DNA from: Aquimarina spongiae
Lineage (GTDB): Bacteria; Bacteroidota; Bacteroidia; Flavobacteriales; Flavobacteriaceae
Reading direction: 5' to 3'
Assembly: GCF_900141785.1 (NCBI RefSeq)
Contig: NZ_FQYP01000004.1
Coordinates: 310,001 to 374,000 of the forward strand
DNA length: 64,000 nucleotides
Shown here: in pieces, positions 29,183-40,425 of the stretch
Numbering within the stretch: the first letter of the stretch is position 1
Layout: every line of letters starts with the position of its first letter
Program-made: the position numbers and the translations under genes
The notes under the pieces: generated by a model
Told to the model about the DNA's origin: nothing
Databases searched by the model: none
The model's input: only the letters and a program-made list of their open reading frames with translations

Positions 29183-29533
29183 ATGTATATAGAAAACCCT
29201 CATTTTGAAAATTTTGTTCGGCTTATAAAGACTGAAAAAATACATTTGGACCCTTTGTTGAACTTGGATGTAGTGGCAGAAAGATTGGAGATAAGCGCAA
29301 ATTATTTGTCACAAATTATCAATAAAAACACAGGCAGAACATTTTGCGACATCATAGGTAAACTTAGAGTAGAAGAAATAAAAAAGATGCTCGACAACAC
29401 ACAATATGATAAGTATACTTTATTATCTATTGGTCTGGAAGCTGGTTTTAACTCTAAATCCGTGTTTTACCGTACTTTCAAAAAGCACACCAGGATGACA
29501 CCTACAGAATACAAAGAAAAATTCGTTTCATAA
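29183..29533 (+). CDS. Single-domain AraC-type DNA-binding protein
   Basis: A 116-residue protein made almost only of an AraC double helix-turn-helix: LDVVAERLEISANYLSQIIN for the first and LSIGLEAGFNSKSVFYRTFK for the second. It has no ligand or sensor domain. It closely resembles the C-terminal part of the GAF-AraC protein at 31844 (shared NYLSQ..NK.TG..F.D and GLE.GFNSKS.FY..FKK). It may be a constitutive regulator, or act as a free competitor for the same sites. The 136-bp upstream gap shows no gene remnant. It ends in a terminator shared with the convergent lanthipeptide-like gene. Confidence 0.88.
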   Translation: MYIENPHFENFVRLIKTEKIHLDPLLNLDVVAERLEISANYLSQIINKNTGRTFCDIIGKLRVEEIKKMLDNTQYDKYTLLSIGLEAGFNSKSVFYRTFKKHTRMTPTEYKEKFVS

Positions 29534-29591: not shown

Positions 29592-29798
29592 TTAAAATCC
29601 AATTACTGTAGGAGATGTACAATCGGCACGACGCGTTTCACATCTGTCAGCCATAGAATTAAAGATAATATCATCTCCTCCTTTACAATTAGGTTCCCTA
29701 CTTTTTTTTCCTCCTTTGAGATTATACATATTACTCTCGCTTAACTTAGCAACACTAAGTTTTTTCAATTCCAGTTTTTTGCCCTTTACTTTTTTCAT
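29592..29798 (-). CDS. Lanthipeptide-like RiPP precursor peptide
   Basis: A 68-residue peptide. Residues 1-30 look like the Bacteroidota class I lanthipeptide/GG-type leader: a Lys-rich start, KKLELKKLSVAKL and a terminal NLKGG. Residues 31-68 would be the core, with Cys38, Cys53 and Cys60 and several Ser/Thr, ending CTSPTVIGF. In known members the leader is recognised by LanB-type dehydratases or other modification enzymes and cut after GG by a peptidase-containing ABC exporter. None of these is encoded in this window, so it is an orphan precursor. Regulators with AraC domains flank it on both sides, and a 19-bp palindrome lies about 85 nt upstream. ATG at 29798. Confidence 0.8.
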   Translation of the reverse strand: MKKVKGKKLELKKLSVAKLSESNMYNLKGGKKSREPNCKGGDDIIFNSMADRCETRRADCTSPTVIGF

Positions 29799-29900: not shown

Positions 29901-31643
29901 TTAATGTTCTTGCGTATCTAACTCATGTAATTTCTTAATAAAGTACGAAGTTTTGATGCCGGTGGTCTTTTTGAAGGCCGAAGAAAAAGACTCAGCGGTA
30001 TTAAATCCCATTTCTTCTGCAATACCCTGAATCGTATAGTTTTTTAACACCTTATCGGTTTTTAATCGATCTACAGCGTAGGCAATTCTAAGATCATTGA
30101 TATAGTTGGCAAAGTTCTTTTCTTTATAATGATTTATGATTTTAGAAAGGTATTTGGTATTGGTCTTGTTGTCTTTTGCCAAAGAAGTAATACTGATGTT
30201 TTTTTTCAGGAAAAGCTGTTTTTTCTCAAAGGCTTCGAGTTTTTTCAAAATATCTAAAATAATCTCTTCTGGCACTCCGATATCAGCTTTCTCGGTTTTT
30301 TCCAAAGTAGGCGTGGTGTTGTTTTTTGTAATGAGCTGCTCAAATTTTAGTTGATACTCTTTTTTCTTTCTGTAAAGTTTGTAAAAGAAAACGGTTACAA
30401 TTAGTGTAAGAATCGCAAGAAAGGCAACTAACAGATATAGGTTTTTGTTGGTTCCTTTTAGCTCATCAATAAGTTTTTCTTTCTCTTTTAGCAGTATAGG
30501 AGTATCAAACTCTTTAAAAAGTCGTGAAGATACAAATGAAGCCTCACTATTCGTGATGCTATCAAAAGAAATGAGTTTATTAATGTAATCCAACTGCATT
30601 TCCTTTTGATTTTTATCCTTAAAAAAGTTAATTAAGAATTCATAACTCTCTCTTACTTCAAGTGGTGCTTTTTTCTCTTTTTGAAAAACAGAATCCACAA
30701 CCAAGAATTGTTTTTTTGCTTCGTTAAGATCCTTCTGTAGACGTTTCAATTTACCCAAGTAAAATGAACCCAAAATATAGAGTTTTTTGTTTTCTGCATT
30801 TTGTTGATCTAGCATACTAATCCCTTCTAGCATACTTTTTTCTGAGGCTTTGTAATTTCTTTTAAAGAAATCAGTAATACCCTTATTGATCATTATTTTA
30901 CCATAAAACCTATGATAATGATATTCGGAGTTTTGAAGTTTTTCAAGTGCTTTTTCGTTGGTTATCGATGCAGAATCTAACTCATTATTGTATCGATAAG
31001 ATTCTGCCAGTGCAATAGAAGATTTTAAATATCGGGTAGTATCAATATTTTTTCTTGTGCTATTACGTATAAAATTTTCTCTGAATAAAGGTAGTGCCTC
31101 ATCATGCTTTCCAATTTCGGTTTTTATACGGGCAATATTATGTCGGGTTATATAAAGGTACTCTTGATTTTGTACTTGTTCTGCAATAGGTAATATTTTT
31201 AAATAGTTGTCAAGAGCAGCAACAATATCTCCTTTTTTCAAGAAATACCCTCCCTTGAAAGAGTAGGCTTCAATAGGATAGGTTTTATCGCCAGAACCAG
31301 CACTCAATAGTATCGAACGATCTAATAACTTTAATTTTTCTGATTCTTCTTTGGCATAATAAGAAAGCAAGCAATAGGCTTTAGCCATCTCTATCTTATT
31401 GTTTTCGCCAACCGCTTTTTTTAAATAACTATTTAGGTAAACAGTCGAGGTTAAGGTATCTGGCCAGGTTTTTATATACGTGCGGTATAATTCTTTGTAA
31501 TCTAACCCTTTTAAAGAATCAGGAATCTCAAATTCTTTTTCTTGAGAAATAAGGGACTGAATGCTCAAAAATAAGAAAGCTAATATGACCTTAGGATAAA
31601 AGGAAATAACAACAGAATATGCTTCTTTAATTTTCAAAAGCAA
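29901..31643 (-). CDS. Membrane TPR sensor with C-terminal AraC DNA-binding domain
   Basis: A 580-residue protein: signal/anchor at about residues 15-33, a periplasmic tetratricopeptide array (about 45-370), a membrane helix (LYLLVAFLAILTLIVTVFFY, about 399-418), a coiled segment, and a cytosolic AraC double HTH (ITSLAKDNKTNTKYLSKIIN and IQGIAEEMGFNTAESFSSAF). It thus joins an outside sensor directly to DNA binding without phosphorelay. There is no in-frame ATG near the start; the first usable codon is TTG at 31643, and a stop lies 16 codons further up. Divergent from the GAF-AraC gene. Confidence 0.87.
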   Translation of the reverse strand: MLLKIKEAYSVVISFYPKVILAFLFLSIQSLISQEKEFEIPDSLKGLDYKELYRTYIKTWPDTLTSTVYLNSYLKKAVGENNKIEMAKAYCLLSYYAKEESEKLKLLDRSILLSAGSGDKTYPIEAYSFKGGYFLKKGDIVAALDNYLKILPIAEQVQNQEYLYITRHNIARIKTEIGKHDEALPLFRENFIRNSTRKNIDTTRYLKSSIALAESYRYNNELDSASITNEKALEKLQNSEYHYHRFYGKIMINKGITDFFKRNYKASEKSMLEGISMLDQQNAENKKLYILGSFYLGKLKRLQKDLNEAKKQFLVVDSVFQKEKKAPLEVRESYEFLINFFKDKNQKEMQLDYINKLISFDSITNSEASFVSSRLFKEFDTPILLKEKEKLIDELKGTNKNLYLLVAFLAILTLIVTVFFYKLYRKKKEYQLKFEQLITKNNTTPTLEKTEKADIGVPEEIILDILKKLEAFEKKQLFLKKNISITSLAKDNKTNTKYLSKIINHYKEKNFANYINDLRIAYAVDRLKTDKVLKNYTIQGIAEEMGFNTAESFSSAFKKTTGIKTSYFIKKLHELDTQEH

Positions 31644-31760
31644 CAGGGAATTTAATAGGTTTACGCGCTTTAAAGATACTATTTTATGTAGTTAGATAAA
31701 AACAAAGTAAAAATCAAGAAAATGCTTGATAATCAATATGTTATGATTGTTTTTAAACTT

Positions 31761-31779
31761 CGAAATTCTCGGAATTTCG
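31761..31779. promoter_or_regulatory. 19-bp palindrome between the divergent regulator genes
   Basis: CGAAATTC-TCG-GAATTTCG matches the copy at 29882-29900 except for one central base. It lies 32 nt upstream of the -33/-7 promoter of the GAF-AraC gene and 118 nt upstream of the TPR-AraC start. Probable operator for autoregulation (inference). Confidence 0.5.
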
Positions 31780-31790
31780 AGAGATATAGT

Positions 31791-31822
31791 TTGTTTTACA
31801 GCATATTCTGAAGGTATATTTG
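31791..31822 (+). promoter_or_regulatory. Promoter of the GAF-AraC regulator gene
   Basis: TTG (31791-31793), 21-nt spacer, TATATTTG (31815-31822): an exact -7 box, 21 nt before the ATG at 31844. Confidence 0.6.
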
Positions 31823-31843: not shown

Positions 31844-32866
31844 ATGGACATTCAGAAGCGATCTTGTTACACAAGTTCTTTGAACCCAATTCGAAAAAGA
31901 CAAAGAACTGATCTTATAAAAAAAGAGGAATCTCGCCAATCTTTTAGATCTCCTTCAACTCATTATTTGGAAGAAGTATTTACTGGATTTGATAATAATT
32001 ATCTACAAAAAGCACCGCTACAAACTATATCTATATTAAGTTATTTTGCTACTTCACTGTTCGATAAAAATAGTGTTCATGATGTGTTATGGGATATCGT
32101 AGAAAATTGTATTTCCCATTTACATCTTGAGGACTGTGTGATCTACATGCTTGATAAAGACAAAGAGTATCTTATTCAGAAAGCGGCCTATGGCAATAAG
32201 AACAATGGTGAAAAAAAGATCGTTAGCCCTATCAAAATTAAAGTTGGAGAAGGTATTGTTGGTCATGTTGCAAAAACCGGAGCATATCAAAGAATAGGAG
32301 ACTTATCCGCTCACTCTTCATATATAGTAGATGATGCCAGAAGGAAGTCAGAATTAGCCGTTCCTATCTATATAGGAGACATGGTAATGGGAGTATTGGA
32401 TTCTGAACATTCTAAGGAAGACTTTTTTAAAGAAAATCATGTGTTTTTGTTTCGATTAATTGCCAAACTTACAGAGCAAAAACTAAAACAAATCTGCAAT
32501 AATAGCAGTACCTGTAATATCACCGATGACAATGTTTATTTCAAAGAACTCGAATCATTGATGAGAGAATCCAAAATATATCGGGACCCTAATTTGGGGC
32601 TTACTAGTGTGGCGCATCAACTTAAGATTAGCAGTAATTATTTATCCCAAGTGGTTAATAAATTAACAGGAAAAAACTTTGCGGATTATATTAATAGCTT
32701 CAGAGTAGAAGATGCCAAATTGAAACTCACCAATATGGATTTTACAAATTATACTATAGTCGGTATTGGTTTAGAGTCTGGTTTCAATTCGAAATCTACT
32801 TTTTATAGTGCTTTCAAGAAAATGGTAGGTATCTCTCCTAGTATTTATCGCAAAACGGCGGCTTGA
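31844..32866 (+). CDS. GAF-domain AraC-family transcription regulator
   Basis: A 340-residue cytosolic protein. After a basic leader, residues about 60-215 form a GAF domain (SILSYFATSLFDKNSVHDVL, IKVGEGIVGHVAKTG, LAVPIYIGDMVMGVLDSEH), followed from about 228 by an AraC double HTH (LTSVAHQLKISSNYLSQVVN and VGIGLESGFNSKSTFYSAFK). GAF domains bind small ligands, haem or nucleotides; here the ligand is unknown. The ATG at 31844 follows an exact promoter box; an in-frame TTG 24 nt earlier lies inside that box and is rejected. Its stop is four nucleotides before the first copy of the 33-bp palindrome, which makes it the leading candidate regulator for that site. Confidence 0.88.
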   Translation: MDIQKRSCYTSSLNPIRKRQRTDLIKKEESRQSFRSPSTHYLEEVFTGFDNNYLQKAPLQTISILSYFATSLFDKNSVHDVLWDIVENCISHLHLEDCVIYMLDKDKEYLIQKAAYGNKNNGEKKIVSPIKIKVGEGIVGHVAKTGAYQRIGDLSAHSSYIVDDARRKSELAVPIYIGDMVMGVLDSEHSKEDFFKENHVFLFRLIAKLTEQKLKQICNNSSTCNITDDNVYFKELESLMRESKIYRDPNLGLTSVAHQLKISSNYLSQVVNKLTGKNFADYINSFRVEDAKLKLTNMDFTNYTIVGIGLESGFNSKSTFYSAFKKMVGISPSIYRKTAA

Positions 32867-32870
32867 AAGT

Positions 32871-32932
32871 GTCCAGATTCTTTGAAATTCAAACTTTCTG
32901 GATAGTGATTCTTAGCTACCGGAGTACTTTTC
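32871..32932 (+). promoter_or_regulatory. 33-bp palindromic operator (copy 1) and -7 box
   Basis: Palindrome 32871-32903: left arm GTCCAGATTC, core TTTGAAATTCAAA, right arm CTTTCTGGAT. After exactly 21 nt comes TACTTTTC (32925-32932; seven of eight to TAnnTTTG), then 15 nt to the lipoprotein ATG at 32948. No TTG at -33. Confidence 0.65.
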
Positions 32933-32947
32933 GGGAAAACAAACAAG

Positions 32948-34501
32948 ATGAACAAAGTATATTTTGCAATCCTTTTGATATCGTTAGCCATATCAGGATG
33001 CTCAGATGACGACGATGAGGTACTACAAATTGAAAATCAAAACCCCGGCGATTTTACGGTTACAGTAACAGAAACAACAAATTCCAGTAGTTTGTTAACC
33101 TGGGATCCAGCTATTGACCCAAACGGAGATACGATTACCTATTCGGTGTTTTTGAATGGAAATGAAATTCAATCACAATTAAAAGTGACACAATTCTTGC
33201 TAGATAATCTTAGTGAGCAAACCATGTACACAGGAATGATAGTGGCCAGTGATGGAAATAATGGTTCTTCCGAAAGCGAATTTAATTTTACCACCTTAGG
33301 ATCATCAAACGAAGTGATGGTGGCCTGGCAAAAATCATTGGGAGGAAGCTTTGATGATGAGGCCTATGCCATTTTACAAACTGCGGATATGGGATATATT
33401 GTGGCTGGAGTAACCGAATCTGAAGATGGGGATGTAACTGAGAACAATGGAGGAAAAGACGGCTGGATCGTAAAATTAGATGCTGAAGGAAATGTACAAT
33501 GGGAAACAAGCTTAGGAGGAACTGCAAACGAAACCATTCATGATATTCAACAAACCGCAGATGGAGGTTACATTGTAGGGGCATTTTCCACCTCAAGCGA
33601 CGGGGATGTTGTTGTAAACAACGGAATGCGTGATTTTTGGATTGTAAAACTGGACGCTTCAGGAAACATCGTTTGGAGAACAGGAGCAGGTGGAGGAGAA
33701 GACGATATTTTGGAAGCGATCATAGAAACTTCAGACGGTGCAATCGTGGCCGTAGGGTTTACAAGTTCCGACACGTTTGATGTATCGGGACAATCTGATG
33801 CCTGGGTCGTAAAACTAGATGAGAACGGTGAGTTGTTATGGGAAACCAATCTGGGTGATGCACAACGAGATGTAGCAATGTCGGTGGTAGAAACCGCTGA
33901 TCTTGGATATGCTTTTACAGGATCTACAGAGACCGAGGTAGACAAGAGGGATGTGTGGGTCGTAAAATTAGATCAGGATGGTCTTGTTGAATGGGATAGA
34001 AAATACGGAGGATCCGAGAATGATACCGCCAATTCTATACAACAAACACCAGATGGAGGCTATATCATTGGAGGCGCATCACAGTCCGAAAATGGGAATG
34101 TTTTGGAGAACAAAGGAGGATCTGATGCTTTTATCATAAAAACTGATGTAGCAGGAAATATTGTTTGGACAAAATCATATGGTGGTTCAAGCTCTGATTG
34201 GATTACGGATATAAAACAAACCAATAATGGAGGATACATTGCGATAGGAAGCTCGAGTTCTGATGATTTTGATGTAGAAAACAACAATGGAGCCGCAGAT
34301 TTCTGGATTTTACGATTGCAAGCCAATGGAGATATGGTATGGCAGCAAAATCTGGGAGGACAGGGAGACGATTATGCATTTTCCATTCAGGAGACAAGTG
34401 ATGGAGGTTTTATAACGGCCGGAACGTGGTACACCAATATTATGGGTAATGGAGAAGGTACTACAGGAGATTTTAACTATTGGGTTATTAAGTTAGAATA
34501 A
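32948..34501 (+). CDS. Lipoprotein with fibronectin-like domain and seven propeller repeats
   Basis: A 517-residue lipoprotein: lipobox ISGC18 followed by SDDDDE, a fibronectin type III-like domain (about 30-115, with SSLLTWDPAIDPNGDTITY), then seven repeats of about 52-65 residues (WQKSLGG...DGGYI.AG...DGDV...G..DFWIVKLD). Repeat number and consensus match the lipoprotein at 8056-9387. A seven-bladed propeller on the cell surface is likely, function unknown. It is the first gene preceded by the 33-bp palindrome. Confidence 0.87.
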   Translation: MNKVYFAILLISLAISGCSDDDDEVLQIENQNPGDFTVTVTETTNSSSLLTWDPAIDPNGDTITYSVFLNGNEIQSQLKVTQFLLDNLSEQTMYTGMIVASDGNNGSSESEFNFTTLGSSNEVMVAWQKSLGGSFDDEAYAILQTADMGYIVAGVTESEDGDVTENNGGKDGWIVKLDAEGNVQWETSLGGTANETIHDIQQTADGGYIVGAFSTSSDGDVVVNNGMRDFWIVKLDASGNIVWRTGAGGGEDDILEAIIETSDGAIVAVGFTSSDTFDVSGQSDAWVVKLDENGELLWETNLGDAQRDVAMSVVETADLGYAFTGSTETEVDKRDVWVVKLDQDGLVEWDRKYGGSENDTANSIQQTPDGGYIIGGASQSENGNVLENKGGSDAFIIKTDVAGNIVWTKSYGGSSSDWITDIKQTNNGGYIAIGSSSSDDFDVENNNGAADFWILRLQANGDMVWQQNLGGQGDDYAFSIQETSDGGFITAGTWYTNIMGNGEGTTGDFNYWVIKLE

Positions 34502-34570
34502 TATTTTACCCCTATTCCTATAATTTTGCGTAATGATGAGGTTTTTTGTCCGTATGCTTTTCATTACTCG

Positions 34571-34619
34571 CGGGTCCTCATTTGCTAACCTAAACGAAAG
34601 TAATGAGGATCCTTTTTTT
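34571..34619 (+). terminator. Terminator-like hairpin before the TPR protein gene
   Basis: GGTCCTCATT (34573-34582) pairs with AATGAGGATCC (34602-34612, one bulged T), followed by seven T residues. The loop is long (19 nt). It fits as terminator of the propeller lipoprotein gene and argues that the next gene starts after it. Confidence 0.5.
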
Positions 34620-34640
34620 CAAACATATACATCACAAAAT

Positions 34641-35960
34641 ATGAACTCTTTCTATGTATTAATGATTAGTTTTTTATCGATCATATTCTGTTTTTGGGAT
34701 TATGATACTATCGAAATGGAAAGACAAAAGTTTCCTAGCGTGATAGAATTAATCTCTGGAAACTTTCTACGGCACTCGCCAGAATTTTATGATTGGAGAA
34801 TAGAAGATCGAGAAGAAAAATTAAAAAAACATCCTGATCGTTTTGATCTATACGACGATCTGGCTGTAGCCTATTCCAAAACAGGGAATGACAACAAAGC
34901 CATCCAGATCATCCTGAAAAAAGACAGCATTTCTCCCCAAAATTACAAGACGTATGCAAATCTGGGAACATTCTATATTCACAACGGACAATTAGAAAAA
35001 GGGATCGAATATATTGATAAAGCAATACAGATCAATCCCGATGCACATTTTGGGAGAGAAATTTATCAGAAATACTTAGCCCAATATGTGGTTAGTAAGA
35101 AGGAAGATGGAACGGTTCCTTTACCACTATCTGCGACATTTAGAAAGTGTTTGCCCTGCCCACCTCGAGACCAGGATAACTTCTATTCGTTTTTATTACA
35201 GGTTTATCGCGAAAAACATAATGGGCAATCCTTATCAATAAAAAAGCTACCTGACGAAGAAGTAAAACATGCGGTAAAAGGGATCATGGGAATGATGAAG
35301 TTTGGAAACTACGACTCTCCTATTCTTCTTGAAGCACTTGGTGATCTGTTAGTCGGTTCTGGTTGGGCAGAAGGGGCTAGACAATTGGCAGCAAGAGCCT
35401 ATCTCAAGGCATCATATCATCCTAGTGTTTCTGAAGTAAAATATCTTTATGACAAAAAAGTAGGGTATTTGCTCTACCATCAATTTACGGATCGAAAAGG
35501 AGATCGATTTACATTGGAAGATCTCGAGAAATTACTAAAAGATGAGATTGACAAAGGGACATCGTTTTACCAAAATATCAGAAATGATGAGATACGATGG
35601 ATACAAAATGGACAAGATCCTGAAGTTGAATTTGCCAAAAAGTATTATCGAGAGCCTATTCTGGATAAAACCATTCAGAAAACTTCGGTAAAAGGCCATG
35701 AGATCGAAAAGATATATAAAGACATTGTTGATTATCGACCAGAAAACATCTCCGATAGAGTGTTTATAGAAATGCCCAATAACTCATCGGGAAGAGCAAT
35801 AGATACTTTCCAGGTAAAAGAGAAAAAAATCGTTGATCAAGCATCATCACATCCAGATGGAGATGATAGAAATACGATCATCTATAAAATACTATTCCCT
35901 TGCTTCGGGATATTGTTTGTGCTTTTAGTTTTGCTATACAAAAGAAAAACCAAGCCATAG
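34641..35960 (+). CDS. TPR-repeat membrane protein
   Basis: A 439-residue protein with an N-terminal membrane segment (FYVLMISFLSIIFCFWD), TPR units at about residues 60-135 (FDLYDDLAVAYSKTGNDNKAIQI and YKTYANLGTFYIHNGQLEKGIEYI), a Cys-rich KCLPCPPRDQ element and a C-terminal membrane helix (ILFPCFGILFVLLVLLYKR). The large middle part lies most likely in the periplasm. The start is taken at ATG 34641, because a terminator-like hairpin occupies the upstream frame; ATGs at 34533 and 34536 would give 475 or 474 residues. Function unknown. Confidence 0.75.
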   Translation: MNSFYVLMISFLSIIFCFWDYDTIEMERQKFPSVIELISGNFLRHSPEFYDWRIEDREEKLKKHPDRFDLYDDLAVAYSKTGNDNKAIQIILKKDSISPQNYKTYANLGTFYIHNGQLEKGIEYIDKAIQINPDAHFGREIYQKYLAQYVVSKKEDGTVPLPLSATFRKCLPCPPRDQDNFYSFLLQVYREKHNGQSLSIKKLPDEEVKHAVKGIMGMMKFGNYDSPILLEALGDLLVGSGWAEGARQLAARAYLKASYHPSVSEVKYLYDKKVGYLLYHQFTDRKGDRFTLEDLEKLLKDEIDKGTSFYQNIRNDEIRWIQNGQDPEVEFAKKYYREPILDKTIQKTSVKGHEIEKIYKDIVDYRPENISDRVFIEMPNNSSGRAIDTFQVKEKKIVDQASSHPDGDDRNTIIYKILFPCFGILFVLLVLLYKRKTKP

Positions 35961-35995
35961 ATACTTTCTTTTTGAAAAGAATACCCATACAAAGT

Positions 35996-36057
35996 ATCCG
36001 AATCTTTTGAAATTCAAACTTTTCGGATACCCAAAGCAACCACCCTGATTAGCTTAG
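35996..36057 (+). promoter_or_regulatory. 33-bp palindromic operator (copy 2) and -7 box
   Basis: Palindrome 35996-36028: ATCCGAATCT, core TTTGAAATTCAAA, CTTTTCGGAT; the arms extend outward two more base pairs (GT/AC). After exactly 21 nt comes TAGCTTAG (36050-36057; seven of eight), then 25 nt to the Kelch-like lipoprotein ATG at 36083. Confidence 0.65.
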
Positions 36058-36082
36058 TATTAAAATTCTAAAAACCAGGGTT

Positions 36083-37108
36083 ATGGATACTAAATATAAA
36101 ATACCATTTGTATATATAGTACTGTTGTTGCTAGTGATAATTAGCGGATGTGAAATTAATGAGGAGCTTACTGTCGATGAGATTAACCAGACTACTTCAG
36201 AGAAAATGGCACCTGCGGGAGCAATTGGTTTTTCTGATATAGTAGTGAACGAAGCCACGCCTTATGGAGGTAGAGCGGCACACGCTTCGGTAGTTTTTGA
36301 TCATAAAATGTGGGTAGTTGCAGGTATTCAAAACCAGCAATATTATAATGATGTATGGTGTAGCAAGAACGGAAAGACCTGGGAGCAGATCAGTGCGACA
36401 TCCAAGTTTACCGAACGTTTCGGTCATGCCATAACGGTAGGCCACAAGAGAATGTGGCTAGTAGGAGGTACACAAGGGACTAACTTTTTTAATGATGTTT
36501 GGCATAGTGAAAATGGAAAAGAATGGGAACAAGCGATAGAAAATGGACCTTTTGCTGCACGTAGATATCACTCCTTTACCAACTTAAATGGTAGAATGTT
36601 CTTGATTGGTGGTTTGACCACTGGATCCAATGCTTTGGCAGATGTTTGGGTGACAAGTGATGGTGTGAATTGGAATTTGGCCACTAATTTCGCACCATTT
36701 GGAAGACGATATGGGCATCAAACGGTAGTTTTCAGGAATACTATCTGGGTGATAGGAGGAATTGATCAAAATGGGAACTACCTCAATGATGTGTGGTATT
36801 CTGCAAATGGATTTCAATGGAATCTAGCTACACCAAATGCACAGTTTGATCCAAGAAGAAATCATGCGGTTACTGTCAATGAAAAAGGTATGTGGTTAAC
36901 TGCAGGGATAGGTCCAAATCATGATTATTTTGACGACATCTGGTTTAGTGAAGATGGGGTCGCGTGGGAGTTTGTACACGTTAAAAAGAATTTCGAACCT
37001 CGTGGTTATCATACGTCTTTGTTTTTTGATGATCGCTTATGGGTAATCAATGGATTCAGTCTGGAACAATCTGCTATGTATTTTCAGGATGTTTGGGGAT
37101 ATCAATAA
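36083..37108 (+). CDS. Kelch-like beta-propeller lipoprotein
   Basis: A 341-residue lipoprotein (lipobox IISGC, about residue 23). The mature part has about six Kelch-type repeats of about 48 residues with the pattern R..H..V...KMW..GG......NDVW.S.NG..W, for example MWVVAGIQNQQYYNDVWCSK and IWVIGGIDQNGNYLNDVWYS. A six-bladed propeller is expected. It is preceded by palindrome copy 2 and followed after 16 nt by another lipoprotein gene, so the next genes may belong to the same transcript. Partner or substrate unknown. Confidence 0.88.
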   Translation: MDTKYKIPFVYIVLLLLVIISGCEINEELTVDEINQTTSEKMAPAGAIGFSDIVVNEATPYGGRAAHASVVFDHKMWVVAGIQNQQYYNDVWCSKNGKTWEQISATSKFTERFGHAITVGHKRMWLVGGTQGTNFFNDVWHSENGKEWEQAIENGPFAARRYHSFTNLNGRMFLIGGLTTGSNALADVWVTSDGVNWNLATNFAPFGRRYGHQTVVFRNTIWVIGGIDQNGNYLNDVWYSANGFQWNLATPNAQFDPRRNHAVTVNEKGMWLTAGIGPNHDYFDDIWFSEDGVAWEFVHVKKNFEPRGYHTSLFFDDRLWVINGFSLEQSAMYFQDVWGYQ

Positions 37109-37124
37109 AACAATACACGTGGCT

Positions 37125-37655
37125 ATGAAATGGATGGGGTTTGTAATCTTGGTTTTGATAGGGGTCTCATGCTCAGACGATGATCGGTTGTTGGATCCTA
37201 GCCCTCCGGTATTTTCAGTAACTCCTGTAGCATTTGATCAAATCACTTCATTTATAGCTTTTGGAGATGCACTAACTCCAACTCAGCTCAACCCAGCTAT
37301 CGAGTACTTTTCTGATCAAGTAGGTGCCCAGGTAAGATCGGTATCAAACGGAATTGTGGTGGATATTAGAATGAATACAAATGTAGATGATCTTGAAGTA
37401 TGGATACGACCTACAGCAGATTCTAAATGGCTTATTATATATGATCATATTATTGATCCCGAAATTACTATTGGAGATCAGGTAAGTGCAGAACAGCATT
37501 TAGGAGGTATTGGTGTTGGAGGTAGAACAGAACTTCAAATTAATGACAATCAAAATCTAGCACATTGCCCTTTAGGCTTCGGAACACCTGATTTTGTACA
37601 AGAACATATTGATTTCTCTGAAAAATGGTGTATCGCAGAAACAGTAATACCATAG
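37125..37655 (+). CDS. Lipoprotein of unknown function
   Basis: A 176-residue protein with signal MKWMGFVILVLIGVSC followed by SDDDRLLDP. The start at 37125 is chosen over an upstream ATG (37050) that would overlap the Kelch gene and bury the lipobox. The mature domain has PVAFDQITSFIAFGDALTPTQLNPAIEYF and ends with a Cys pair (LAHCPLGFGTP, EKWCIAE). I recognise no family. Same strand and close spacing to its neighbours suggest one operon from 36083. Confidence 0.8.
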   Translation: MKWMGFVILVLIGVSCSDDDRLLDPSPPVFSVTPVAFDQITSFIAFGDALTPTQLNPAIEYFSDQVGAQVRSVSNGIVVDIRMNTNVDDLEVWIRPTADSKWLIIYDHIIDPEITIGDQVSAEQHLGGIGVGGRTELQINDNQNLAHCPLGFGTPDFVQEHIDFSEKWCIAETVIP

Positions 37656-37691
37656 ACCTAACATTAGAAGAAAAATTTAAAACAAAAAACT

Positions 37692-38306
37692 ATGAAATCT
37701 ATTAAAATGACAATATTGGTCCTTATTTTATGCCAAAGCGTAGTGCAAGCGCAAGAGACGAATTCGATAACCGTAATGGGGGAGGCTGATAAAAGTACTG
37801 AGATCGAAAGATACATTGCAAATGTAGAGTTTAGAGAAGTTATAGGAGATAGTTACAGAAACATCAAAGGCAAAACGGTGAATGAAATTGCTAAAGAATT
37901 TGCGGCTGCGTTAAGTAAAGTAAATATTGATTTTAGCCGTTTTGAAGAAGATGAAATATATCGTCTTACTTCCTATGCTTATAATACTTCGAGGTTTTAT
38001 TTTTATAAAACAGCTTCCAAAAGCGAAGTAGAACTCATCCTAAGTCAAAGCATGGAGGGAGTGATAAATACAAAAGTGGATATCATATCCAAAGAATTGA
38101 CCAGTGAGCAAATCGGGAAATTGAATAAGGAAGCGATCGATAACGCCAGAAATACGGCCACTCAAATTGTTAATAACATAGGAAGAACGGTAGGGAAAAT
38201 TATTCAAATTGAAGCTCCGCAAAGTAACAAATACAAATATTACAGCGCTACAGAGATAAAAGAGCCTTCAAAATATTATGTAAAAGTGGTGTTCGCTCTA
38301 GAGTAA
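37692..38306 (+). CDS. Periplasmic SIMPL-like protein
   Basis: A 204-residue protein with a Sec signal (ending SVVQAQ) and a mature part that resembles SIMPL/DUF541 proteins: it begins NSITVMGEADKSTEIERYIANVEF (first strand of that fold) and contains a later NKEAIDNARNTATQIVNNIGRTVGKIIQIE stretch, the usual A-x-x-K-A-x-x-L-A position, here with INNIG. The middle (about 45-120) diverges from typical members. Function of SIMPL proteins is poorly known, with links to envelope stress. It lies 36 nt after the preceding lipoprotein and 12 nt before the next gene. Confidence 0.75.
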   Translation: MKSIKMTILVLILCQSVVQAQETNSITVMGEADKSTEIERYIANVEFREVIGDSYRNIKGKTVNEIAKEFAAALSKVNIDFSRFEEDEIYRLTSYAYNTSRFYFYKTASKSEVELILSQSMEGVINTKVDIISKELTSEQIGKLNKEAIDNARNTATQIVNNIGRTVGKIIQIEAPQSNKYKYYSATEIKEPSKYYVKVVFALE

Positions 38307-38318
38307 AAACCCAGAAAA

Positions 38319-38954
38319 ATGAAATTACTTCAGTTTAAGTTGTCTTGTCTTGTGATATGCCTTTTAGGTGTAGTAGATTGTAGTGACCATAAGAAAGGAG
38401 ACGCAATAAAATCTTCTCCAACTGTATATAAAGAGTCGGTTCAACTTCAAAATCAAGATACCTTCAAACTGGGATATACCTATTGGTGGCCCCAATCAGG
38501 TCCTTTTTTAGGGTATTGTGGAGAACCCTATAGTTTGGTGTTTTTGGGTACGGTAGTAGCACTTCAGGAAGAGCGCATTGAGCAGCATTATGTAGCACAA
38601 AAAGGAATGATTAAAGTAGATAGTGTTCTTTTTTCAAAAAAACTTCAGAAAAAAACCTATCAGAACCAAAAGTTGATAAGTACAGATGCCTTTTACCAGG
38701 CAAATATTCAAGAAGGTGATCACATATTGGTGTGTTGTTATGCCTACGAAGGTAATTATGTGCATCCCGGTGGCAAGTCGATATTAAAAATAGAAGGAAT
38801 ACATGATCCCAAAGTACAATCACTGATAACATATATACAATCCGGCCAGGACCCGCGGTCCATTAAGGGTGATATCAACCTATGGGAAGAAGCACAATTG
38901 GGTTATGATCTCAAGCAAATTGTCACCTGTAAAGAAGAGATGGATTCTTATTAG
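38319..38954 (+). CDS. Exported protein of unknown function, possibly lipid-anchored
   Basis: A 211-residue protein. The N-terminus (MKLLQFKLSCLVICLLG) is a clear signal; VVDC22 could be a lipobox but Asp at -1 is very unusual, so anchoring is doubtful. The mature part has five further Cys residues, with YWWPQSGPFLGYCGEPYSLVFLGTVV near residue 65 and DHILVCCYAYEGNY near 140, and looks beta-rich. The resemblance to tissue-inhibitor (TIMP-like) or OB folds, which also begin with Cys and carry an FxGxV strand, is only a guess. It is followed 21 nt later by palindrome copy 3. Confidence 0.72.
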   Translation: MKLLQFKLSCLVICLLGVVDCSDHKKGDAIKSSPTVYKESVQLQNQDTFKLGYTYWWPQSGPFLGYCGEPYSLVFLGTVVALQEERIEQHYVAQKGMIKVDSVLFSKKLQKKTYQNQKLISTDAFYQANIQEGDHILVCCYAYEGNYVHPGGKSILKIEGIHDPKVQSLITYIQSGQDPRSIKGDINLWEEAQLGYDLKQIVTCKEEMDSY

Positions 38955-38975
38955 AAACGAATAGTATCCAAAGAT

Positions 38976-39037
38976 GTCCGAATTTTTTGACTATCAACTA
39001 TTTCGGACGTTTGTGGGGATTGTACCACTTAAGTTTG
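38976..39037 (+). promoter_or_regulatory. 33-bp palindromic operator (copy 3) and -7 box
   Basis: Palindrome 38976-39008: GTCCGAATTT, core TTTGACTATCAAC, TATTTCGGAC. After exactly 21 nt comes TAAGTTTG (39030-39037), an exact -7 box, 38 nt before the ATG at 39076. A weak TTG lies directly after the palindrome. Confidence 0.7.
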
Positions 39038-39075
39038 CTACAAGATTTTTAAATAACATTAAAATTATGAAAGCG

Positions 39076-39657
39076 ATGAAAAATGTAATTAAGTATGCGG
39101 CGATAATGGTACTATCTGTATTTATATTCTCATGTGAAGGGGAAGACGGTGCTATTGGCCCACAAGGCGAACCAGGAATACAAGGGGAACAAGGCCCTCA
39201 GGGACAACAAGGAGAACAGGGTGAGCAAGGCGAACAAGGAGAAACAGGAACAGCAAATGTAATCTATTCAGAATGGATAGCCAGAGATTTTGAAACGGGT
39301 GGAGCTGCAGAAACCAACACCCAATTATTGGCTACACTAGGAGTGGGTGAATTTGACCTTGCCGAAGATGTATTATTGGTATACGGTAGACGTGAAGTAA
39401 ATGTTATCGTTTCAGAAGTTTATCAGCTCCCATTTGTATTTGCTTCACAAGATGAATATTATGGTTTTCAAGTGTCTAATTTTGCTGGAGGTGCTTCTTT
39501 ACGAATTGAAGTATCTACACTAGACGGAGGAACTAATTTATTTACCTTTTTTGACGACTTTAGATTTGTTATCATCCCAGGTGGAGTAGCCAGATCTTCT
39601 ATAGATTATAGTGCAATGTCTTACGAAGAAATCGTAAAGCTTTTTAACATCAAATAA
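39076..39657 (+). CDS. Collagen-like lipoprotein (paralogue A)
   Basis: A 193-residue lipoprotein with signal MKNVIKYAAIMVLSVFIFSC and about 12 collagen-type G-x-y triplets directly after the Cys (GED GAI GPQ GEP GIQ GEQ and on to GETG), rich in Glu and Gln. A beta-rich domain of about 135 residues follows (ANVIYSEWIARDF to FRFVIIPGG), ending YSAMSYEEIVKLFNIK. Collagen-like triplets can form trimers, so the C-terminal domain is probably displayed as a trimer on a stalk. The start at 39076 matches the paralogue; an ATG at 39067 is possible, while the longer frame from 38974 would run through the promoter. Confidence 0.85.
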   Translation: MKNVIKYAAIMVLSVFIFSCEGEDGAIGPQGEPGIQGEQGPQGQQGEQGEQGEQGETGTANVIYSEWIARDFETGGAAETNTQLLATLGVGEFDLAEDVLLVYGRREVNVIVSEVYQLPFVFASQDEYYGFQVSNFAGGASLRIEVSTLDGGTNLFTFFDDFRFVIIPGGVARSSIDYSAMSYEEIVKLFNIK

Positions 39658-39684
39658 TTAGCCTAACCCCTTTGATTTAAGGAA

Positions 39685-39713
39685 TTCCCCGGGATACCAT
39701 CTCGGGGTTTTTG
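39685..39713 (+). terminator. Intrinsic terminator after collagen-like paralogue A
   Basis: CCCCG (39687-39691) pairs with CGGGG (39703-39707) around an 11-nt loop, followed by TTTTTG. It separates the two paralogues, so each needs its own promoter. Confidence 0.7.
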
Positions 39714-39753
39714 TTTTACAATAAATATGGAAGAATGACAAAAACAGATAAGC

Positions 39754-39815
39754 GTCCGGATTTTTTGACTATCAAACATTTCGGACATTCAAAATTGTAG
39801 TTGTACATAAGTTTG
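39754..39815 (+). promoter_or_regulatory. 33-bp palindromic operator (copy 4) and -7 box
   Basis: Palindrome 39754-39786: GTCCGGATTT, core TTTGACTATCAAA, CATTTCGGAC. After exactly 21 nt comes TAAGTTTG (39808-39815), identical to copy 3, 37 nt before the ATG at 39853. No TTG at -33. Confidence 0.7.
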
Positions 39816-39852
39816 CCTCATGATGTTACAAACTTTAAAAATAGTAAATGCA

Positions 39853-40425
39853 ATGAAAAATGTAATTAAGTACACAGCCATCCTTTTTGTATCGGTATTG
39901 ATTTTCTCTTGCGAGGGAGAAGATGGCGCTGTAGGACCACAAGGTGAATCAGGAATACAGGGAGAACAAGGGCCACAGGGTGATCAAGGGGAACAGGGAG
40001 AAACAGGAACTGCAAATGTGATTTATTCGGATTGGATTCCAAATGGGTTTGCCACAGGAGGAGGTCTCAATCAAAAGATTTTCACTTTGGCTAGTCAGCA
40101 AGAAATTACCGATATGGGTGTAAATCTCGACACTAGCGTGGTTATGGTATATGCCAGAGGAGAAGGTGTGTTAGCAGCAATAGGTTTAGAAGTAGTGCCT
40201 TTGCCTTATGAAAACCGATCAGAGAATCAATTATATACATATAGTTTAAATGATGGTCGAATAAGAGCTTTAGGTGTTGTGATTGGTGGTGGAGATAATG
40301 ATTTCGATTTTTTTGAAGACTATCGATATGTGATTATTCCTGGAGGACAAGCAGCAGCAAAATCGGCAATAGATTATAAGAGTATGTCTTATAAAGAGAT
40401 TGCAGCACTTTTTGATATTAAATAA
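39853..40425 (+). CDS. Collagen-like lipoprotein (paralogue B)
   Basis: A 190-residue lipoprotein with signal MKNVIKYTAILFVSVLIFSC and about 10 G-x-y triplets (GED GAV GPQ GES GIQ GEQ GPQ GDQ GEQ GET). The following domain aligns with paralogue A at its ends (ANVIYSDWIPNGF; DYRYVIIPGGQ; SAIDYKSMSYKEIAALFDIK) but the middle differs strongly, as if under diversifying pressure or replaced. Tandem duplication with the promoter element included is evident. Start by alignment with A; an earlier in-frame ATG at 39820 overlaps the likely transcription start. Confidence 0.85.
   Translation: MKNVIKYTAILFVSVLIFSCEGEDGAVGPQGESGIQGEQGPQGDQGEQGETGTANVIYSDWIPNGFATGGGLNQKIFTLASQQEITDMGVNLDTSVVMVYARGEGVLAAIGLEVVPLPYENRSENQLYTYSLNDGRIRALGVVIGGGDNDFDFFEDYRYVIIPGGQAAAKSAIDYKSMSYKEIAALFDIK

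Follow-up and report, generated by a model that had tools for sequence, protein, structure and literature searches.

Among the AraC-family activators, RhaS and RhaR of Escherichia coli act on an inverted pair of half-sites near the promoter (17 bp for the half-sites of RhaR; PMC3870299), and MarA makes its two helix-turn-helix (HTH) contacts 10 bp apart, at nucleotides 9-10 and 19-20 (PMC8279559). In Flavobacterium psychrophilum, the promoter element TAnnTTTG lies at -12 to -5 (PMC9723704). Here we describe a 33-bp palindrome present in four copies, each before a lipoprotein gene, in a 64,000-nucleotide stretch of the Aquimarina spongiae genome (assembly GCF_900141785.1, contig NZ_FQYP01000004.1, positions 310,001 to 374,000; hereafter the window). 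We consider it likely that the palindrome is the operator of a GAF-AraC protein encoded just upstream of copy 1, and that this protein activates transcription by contacting RNA polymerase. Activation by an AraC-type protein is a known kind of control, although the promoter geometry, the sensor, and the regulon appear to be new; an initial annotation of the window had named no described regulon with this site, and we likewise found no earlier description of the site, regulator, or regulon in the open-licence literature.

The four palindromes are on the forward strand at 32871-32903 (copy 1, beginning 4 bp past the regulator stop codon), 35996-36028 (copy 2), 38976-39008 (copy 3), and 39754-39786 (copy 4), each followed after exactly 21 nt by a -7 box of the TAnnTTTG type on the same strand. 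The boxes are TACTTTTC at 32925-32932 and TAGCTTAG at 36050-36057, each agreeing at five of the six defined positions, and TAAGTTTG at both 39030-39037 and 39808-39815, agreeing at all six. Palindromes, gaps, and boxes are all where the initial annotation had placed them, and the consensus pattern with up to three mismatches matches four times in the window and not once in 100 dinucleotide shuffles. The downstream genes had been read as coding for lipoproteins, and all four proteins do have a lipoprotein signal peptide. Their likely start codons are at 32948, 36083, 39067, and 39853; the mechanically called ATG at 38974 lies at the edge of a palindrome, and that at 39820 at the predicted transcription start. 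A suggested division of the copies into two subtypes by core center is not supported, as the CTA center is confined to copies 3 and 4 and a C at position 16 is seen in only 2 of 69 non-redundant Aquimarina promoters; because these two copies precede tandem paralogous collagen-like genes, their shared center reflects duplication rather than a subtype.

The whole 5.35-Mb genome has five sites in all, each before a lipoprotein gene. The fifth, at 423840-423872 of contig 14 (genome G000, loci L004 and L141), is a perfect palindrome ahead of a gene for a 471-aa lipoprotein, and its box, at 20 nt, is weak; an off-register version of the combined pattern, serving as a chance control, has four matches. 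When 84,980 named genomes were scanned for exact matches, 35 stretches had the strict site, all of them from Aquimarina except those of one metagenome-assembled genome labeled only 'Bacteroidia bacterium'. Half of the Aquimarina genomes (33 of 66) carry one to seven strict sites, mostly clustered, compared with 0 or 1 for the reversed-pattern control.

Forty loci from Aquimarina genomes were taken for scanning, with mechanical gene calls in the relatives, and a logo was built from 69 non-redundant promoters with the sites oriented by the better box. The logo, RTCCGAATTCTTTGAAATTCAAACTTTTCGGAY, has an invariant TC, TTGA, TCAA, and GGA (palindrome positions 2, 3, 12-15, 19-22, and 30-32), and the next strong signal comes only at T55 A56 .. 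T59 T60. In a test independent of orientation, with both sides of each site searched, a box with at least five of the six positions lies exactly 21 nt off in 60 of 67 non-redundant sites; six-of-six boxes occur 33 times at 21 nt, three times at 20 nt, and at most once at any other distance. A TTG at the -33 distance is present at 3 of the 69 sites versus seven expected by chance, which bears out the early remark that this element is absent or weak, and lipobox proteins are encoded downstream of 94 of 103 sites, versus 36% of all open reading frames under the same loose rule. The fixed spacing, the rarity of TTG, and the lipoprotein targets together lend strong support to the initial proposal of activator-dependent promoters in which the operator replaces the -33 box.

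The internal structure of the site suggests how such a protein would bind. Each 15-bp half-site (RTCCGAANNNTTTGA) has two boxes, TCC with TTTGA or TCAAA with GGA, with box centers at 3 and 13 and, in the partner half-site, at 21 and 31, that is, 10 bp apart. Each of the two HTHs of an AraC protein is able to insert into one major groove. Two boxes at this distance in each half-site fit a double HTH, and the 33-bp site fits two domains as an inverted pair; one box would be available for each HTH of an AraC DNA-binding domain, and two such domains presumably occupy the 33 bp in inverted arrangement. With the spacing from -7 box to transcription start that is usual in flavobacteria, the operator is placed at about -66 to -34, adjoining the -33 position, and since it abuts the missing -33 element, activation by RNA polymerase contact is the most likely mode. 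Once bound, the protein would lie against the vacant -33 position and bring in RNA polymerase, the TAnnTTTG -7 box being the sole element left in these promoters. The four promoters, with the genes for the fn3-repeat, Kelch, and two collagen-like lipoproteins and those behind them, would be switched on together. Both the binding of the regulator to the site and the direction of its effect are putative and drawn from sequence comparison.

The inverted half-site pair next to the promoter resembles that of RhaS/RhaR, and the double HTH with two boxes 10 bp apart resembles MarA, Rob, and SoxS. However, the half-sites of RhaR are 17 bp apart, whereas those described here abut, spanning 33 bp in all with a 3-bp center, and this system also differs from RhaS/RhaR in having a GAF domain as sensor, mostly accompanied by membrane segments, and unrelated target genes. 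MarA acts as a monomer on one asymmetric site, unlike the inverted pair here.

The candidate regulator is coded by a forward-strand gene at 31844-32866 (340 aa from the ATG at 31844, with an in-frame TTG ahead of it at 31820) and has a GAF domain and an AraC-type double HTH (Pfam GAF_2, 2.6e-11; HTH_18, 4.7e-18; HTH_AraC, 7.2e-10). An AlphaFold model (predicted local distance difference test score, 74) places the HTH helices at residues 253-335. A structure search returned GAF matches only, with Z scores of 20-22 against solved GAF domains (best, 3mmh_A; Z of 22.0, root-mean-square deviation of 2.8 over 160 residues), and the HTH part was judged through Pfam and a sequence search, which retrieves Rob and SoxS chains. 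The closest solved folds are of the fRMsr/YebR type and PtsP (PDB 3mmh, 1vhm, 3ksf, and 3ci6; Z, 20-22). What we take to be the fRMsr cysteine loops read GIVG and YIVDD in the window regulator, and because the cysteine loops are not evident, the domain is more likely to be ligand sensing than catalytic, an enzyme being unlikely as judged by these presumed motifs. Most regulator relatives have at least two N-terminal hydrophobic segments, as identified by hydropathy, together with the GAF domain. In the window regulator, the MDI start and the linker are retained but not the membrane segments, which the regulators of L038, L113, and L116 also lack. Because N-terminal membrane segments are present in most relatives, the ancestor appears to have been a membrane-anchored one-component sensor, with the GAF domain reading the signal and the window copy having lost its anchor.

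Position and co-occurrence tie this gene to the palindrome. Of 46 GAF-AraC relatives, 30 end 3-8 bp before a site (the window gene, 4 bp before copy 1), and in four paralogous regulators from four genomes, the site overlaps the gene end and has a slightly different sequence of its own (GTCCTGATTTCTTGAAATTCAAACTTTAAGGAC and near copies). Of 33 genomes with the site, 32 have the regulator, versus 3 of the 33 without it (Fisher P = 6e-14, not corrected for ancestry). GAF-AraC alone is constant among the regulators of the clusters; the TPR-AraC protein encoded beside them is different or absent in other clusters. The AraC-type candidates initially listed at 29-33 kb can thus be narrowed by adjacency and co-occurrence to a single gene, and the GAF-AraC protein of 31844-32866 is very probably the one acting at the palindromes.

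The strongest evidence for the pairing of regulator and site is that it crosses genera. A protein-alignment search covering 120 genomes, drawn from different genera of the family, identified five more genomes bearing the regulator. At four of these five loci, exactly one RTCC-N25-GGAY is no more than 700 bp from the regulator, and TAnnTTTG comes exactly 21 nt after it, the box being no part of the search pattern; at the fifth locus, the left arm and the box remain. When 397 genomes were searched blind at the DNA level, using a looser pattern that includes the 21-nt gap and making no use of the protein, 14 sites outside Aquimarina had telling gene context. At 12 of these, in 11 genera, an AraC-type HTH gene is next upstream, and the downstream genes code for a collagen-like lipoprotein (eight), a 490-aa secreted protein (three), or another secreted protein (one); the remaining two precede collagen-like lipoproteins, with no HTH gene within the stretch examined. 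Six matches lack such context, a number near the seven obtained with the reversed control. With genomes G076 and G173 added, regulator and site are side by side in 13 other genera, mostly ahead of a gene for a collagen-like lipoprotein, and there the outer TCC/GGA boxes, the 33-bp length, and the 21-nt gap are kept and the inner TTTGA drifts. A site confined to the genus was considered and then rejected, since searching by protein turned up diverged sites in further genera. Outside the family, a class-wide search found no regulator at an E value of 1e-80, with six candidates scored per genome, a depth at which absence is not shown.

Several observations weigh against an activating GAF-AraC protein at these sites. 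Genome G058 has one site with no close GAF-AraC gene, and in G012, G049, and G054 the regulator is there without a clear site, although the regulator gene of G054 has an internal stop, that of G049 has a decayed core beside it, and G012 has a poor site before a 160-aa lipoprotein gene. The AraC-family rhamnose regulators of Bacteroides are predicted to use direct repeats with 21-bp periodicity rather than abutting inverted half-sites (PMC3870299); Bacteroides RhaR is also an AraC-type activator from the same phylum, but its motif is a direct repeat, whereas ours is inverted. The choice of activation over repression would, moreover, follow from two features only, the operator position and the missing -33 box. 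The same regulator could act at the same site as a repressor, or do both depending on the signal, and the operator position is compatible with repression through polymerase contact at about -34. However, with the -33 element missing (TTG at 3 of 69 sites) these promoters should be weak when unaided, and the operator leaves the -7 box and the start uncovered, and we regard repression as unlikely.

Somewhat less probable again is that another protein binds the site, either the divergently encoded TPR-AraC (29901-31643) or an unlinked regulator, with GAF-AraC merely a linked gene. TPR-AraC genes flank many clusters, G058 has its site without a close GAF-AraC gene, and the solo sites before the 160-aa lipoprotein gene are more perfect palindromes that could answer to a paralogue. 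The TPR-AraC gene is nevertheless replaced or absent in several clusters that retain both the site and GAF-AraC, a GAF-AraC relative again adjoins the site in other genera, and the paralogous regulators of four genomes have their own variant site at the same place. TPR-AraC itself was rejected as the binder, as it is not constant across clusters.

That the palindrome acts as an RNA element, or as an intrinsic terminator for the gene that precedes it, is highly improbable. A near-perfect hairpin is predicted and TTTT follows some solo sites, where a second role in termination is possible, but the palindrome is upstream of the -7 box and hence outside the lipoprotein transcripts, the cluster sites, including the window copies, are followed by AT(T/C) with no T run, several sites have a divergent upstream gene, and a terminator has no need of a 21-nt distance to a -7 box. 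Termination was rejected for the window copies for want of a T run. Least credible is a repetitive extragenic palindromic or mobile repeat lying near genes by chance: there are several clustered copies per genome, but the genome-wide count that the initial annotation had called for shows no scatter, with five copies in 5.35 Mb, all before lipoprotein genes, and a promoter spacing that is kept while the flanks differ, and a dispersed repeat was rejected on this count and spacing.

An activating GAF-AraC protein thus being preferred, a broader proposal is possible, although we hold it tentatively and at rather less than even odds: a family-wide flavobacterial envelope regulon in which a membrane-anchored, one-component GAF-AraC sensor acts at abutting inverted half-sites in place of a -33 box and switches on a set of surface lipoproteins (collagen-like, Kelch, and fn3-repeat), joined in some species by a double-glycine-leader peptide. 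If so, surface display and peptide export would be coupled to one signal. Known operators are few in marine Flavobacteriaceae; about 100 sites here allow the regulator, operator, promoter geometry, and target set to be read side by side. A spacing of exactly 21 nt, together with the missing -33 box, offers a handle on the workings of an AraC-type activator paired with the unusual Bacteroidota sigma factor. New regulon members, including solo lipoproteins and a small peptide gene, are found with the site matrix, and a natural inducible promoter for Aquimarina and its relatives may become available once the signal is known.

The cluster, in the window coded throughout on the forward strand, has an order conserved in Aquimarina: GAF-AraC regulator, site, fn3-repeat lipoprotein, TPR protein, site, and Kelch lipoprotein, followed by M23-like lipoprotein, SIMPL protein, a 205-aa protein, site, and collagen-like lipoprotein. 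The first target gene, at 32948-34501, codes for a 517-aa lipoprotein with an fn3 domain and repeats, and the same family follows the first site in most Aquimarina clusters; the TPR protein gene behind it (34533-35960; 'FWDYDTIEMER') is probably in the copy 1 operon, as judged by order and strand. Copy 2 precedes the Kelch-repeat lipoprotein gene at 36083-37108 (Pfam Kelch, 7.4e-42), and the genes coding for the M23-like lipoprotein (37134-37655), the SIMPL protein (37692-38306), and a 211-aa lipoprotein (38319-38954), whose order is conserved in the clusters of relatives, are probably on one transcript with it. Copies 3 and 4 precede genes for a collagen-like lipoprotein (39067-39657; Pfam Collagen, 2.7e-07, scanned from 39076) and a second, paralogous one of the same family (39853-40425); this family is the commonest target across genera. 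Reduced clusters (L050, L053, L115, and L129) have the regulator, site, and collagen-like lipoprotein alone.

Solo sites precede genes for a 160-aa lipoprotein, a 550-aa lipoprotein, or, at four loci, a peptide of about 50 residues with a double-glycine leader, and because the 160-aa family is also found inside clusters with the site, the solo sites are tied to the same regulon. The four peptide loci (L043, L062, L063, and L069) have the usual 21-nt gap before the gene for the approximately 50-aa peptide (MNNLKNFKKLDRKELSKINGGGDDRQ...), a possible exported peptide of the same regulon. At L057, L060, L065, L068, L070, and L072, the sites before the approximately 550-aa lipoprotein genes are divergent from a gene for a 698-aa FeoB-like protein. 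We also note a conserved GGTAAACCCCTTAAAAA stretch that abuts the operator in many intergenic sites of relatives (logo positions -18 to -1), often within a weak inverted repeat and not evident at window copies 2-4; it is possibly an UP element or a site for a second factor. At L111 (G049), a decayed site, TTTGAAATTCAAAGTTTTAGGAC, is found right after the regulator with no box, and there are no longer any lipoprotein genes, as would be expected had the regulon been lost.

Other small features are present near the regulator. Adjoining the TPR-AraC gene is one for a 68-aa peptide with a GG motif (MKKVKGKKLELKKLSVAKLSESNMYNLKGGKKS...; 29592-29798, reverse strand), relatives of which are at the matching place in L036, L038, and L040. 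The gene at 29183-29533 (forward strand) codes for a 116-aa protein composed of an AraC-type HTH alone, with a relative in G045 (L125), and is possibly a remnant or a stand-alone regulator. A further palindrome, TCGAAATTCTCGGAATTTCGA, at 31760-31780 is upstream of the regulator gene, and similar TCTCGAAATTC...ATCGAGA stretches are upstream of several regulator relatives; palindromes of this type could serve as operator for the regulator's own gene.
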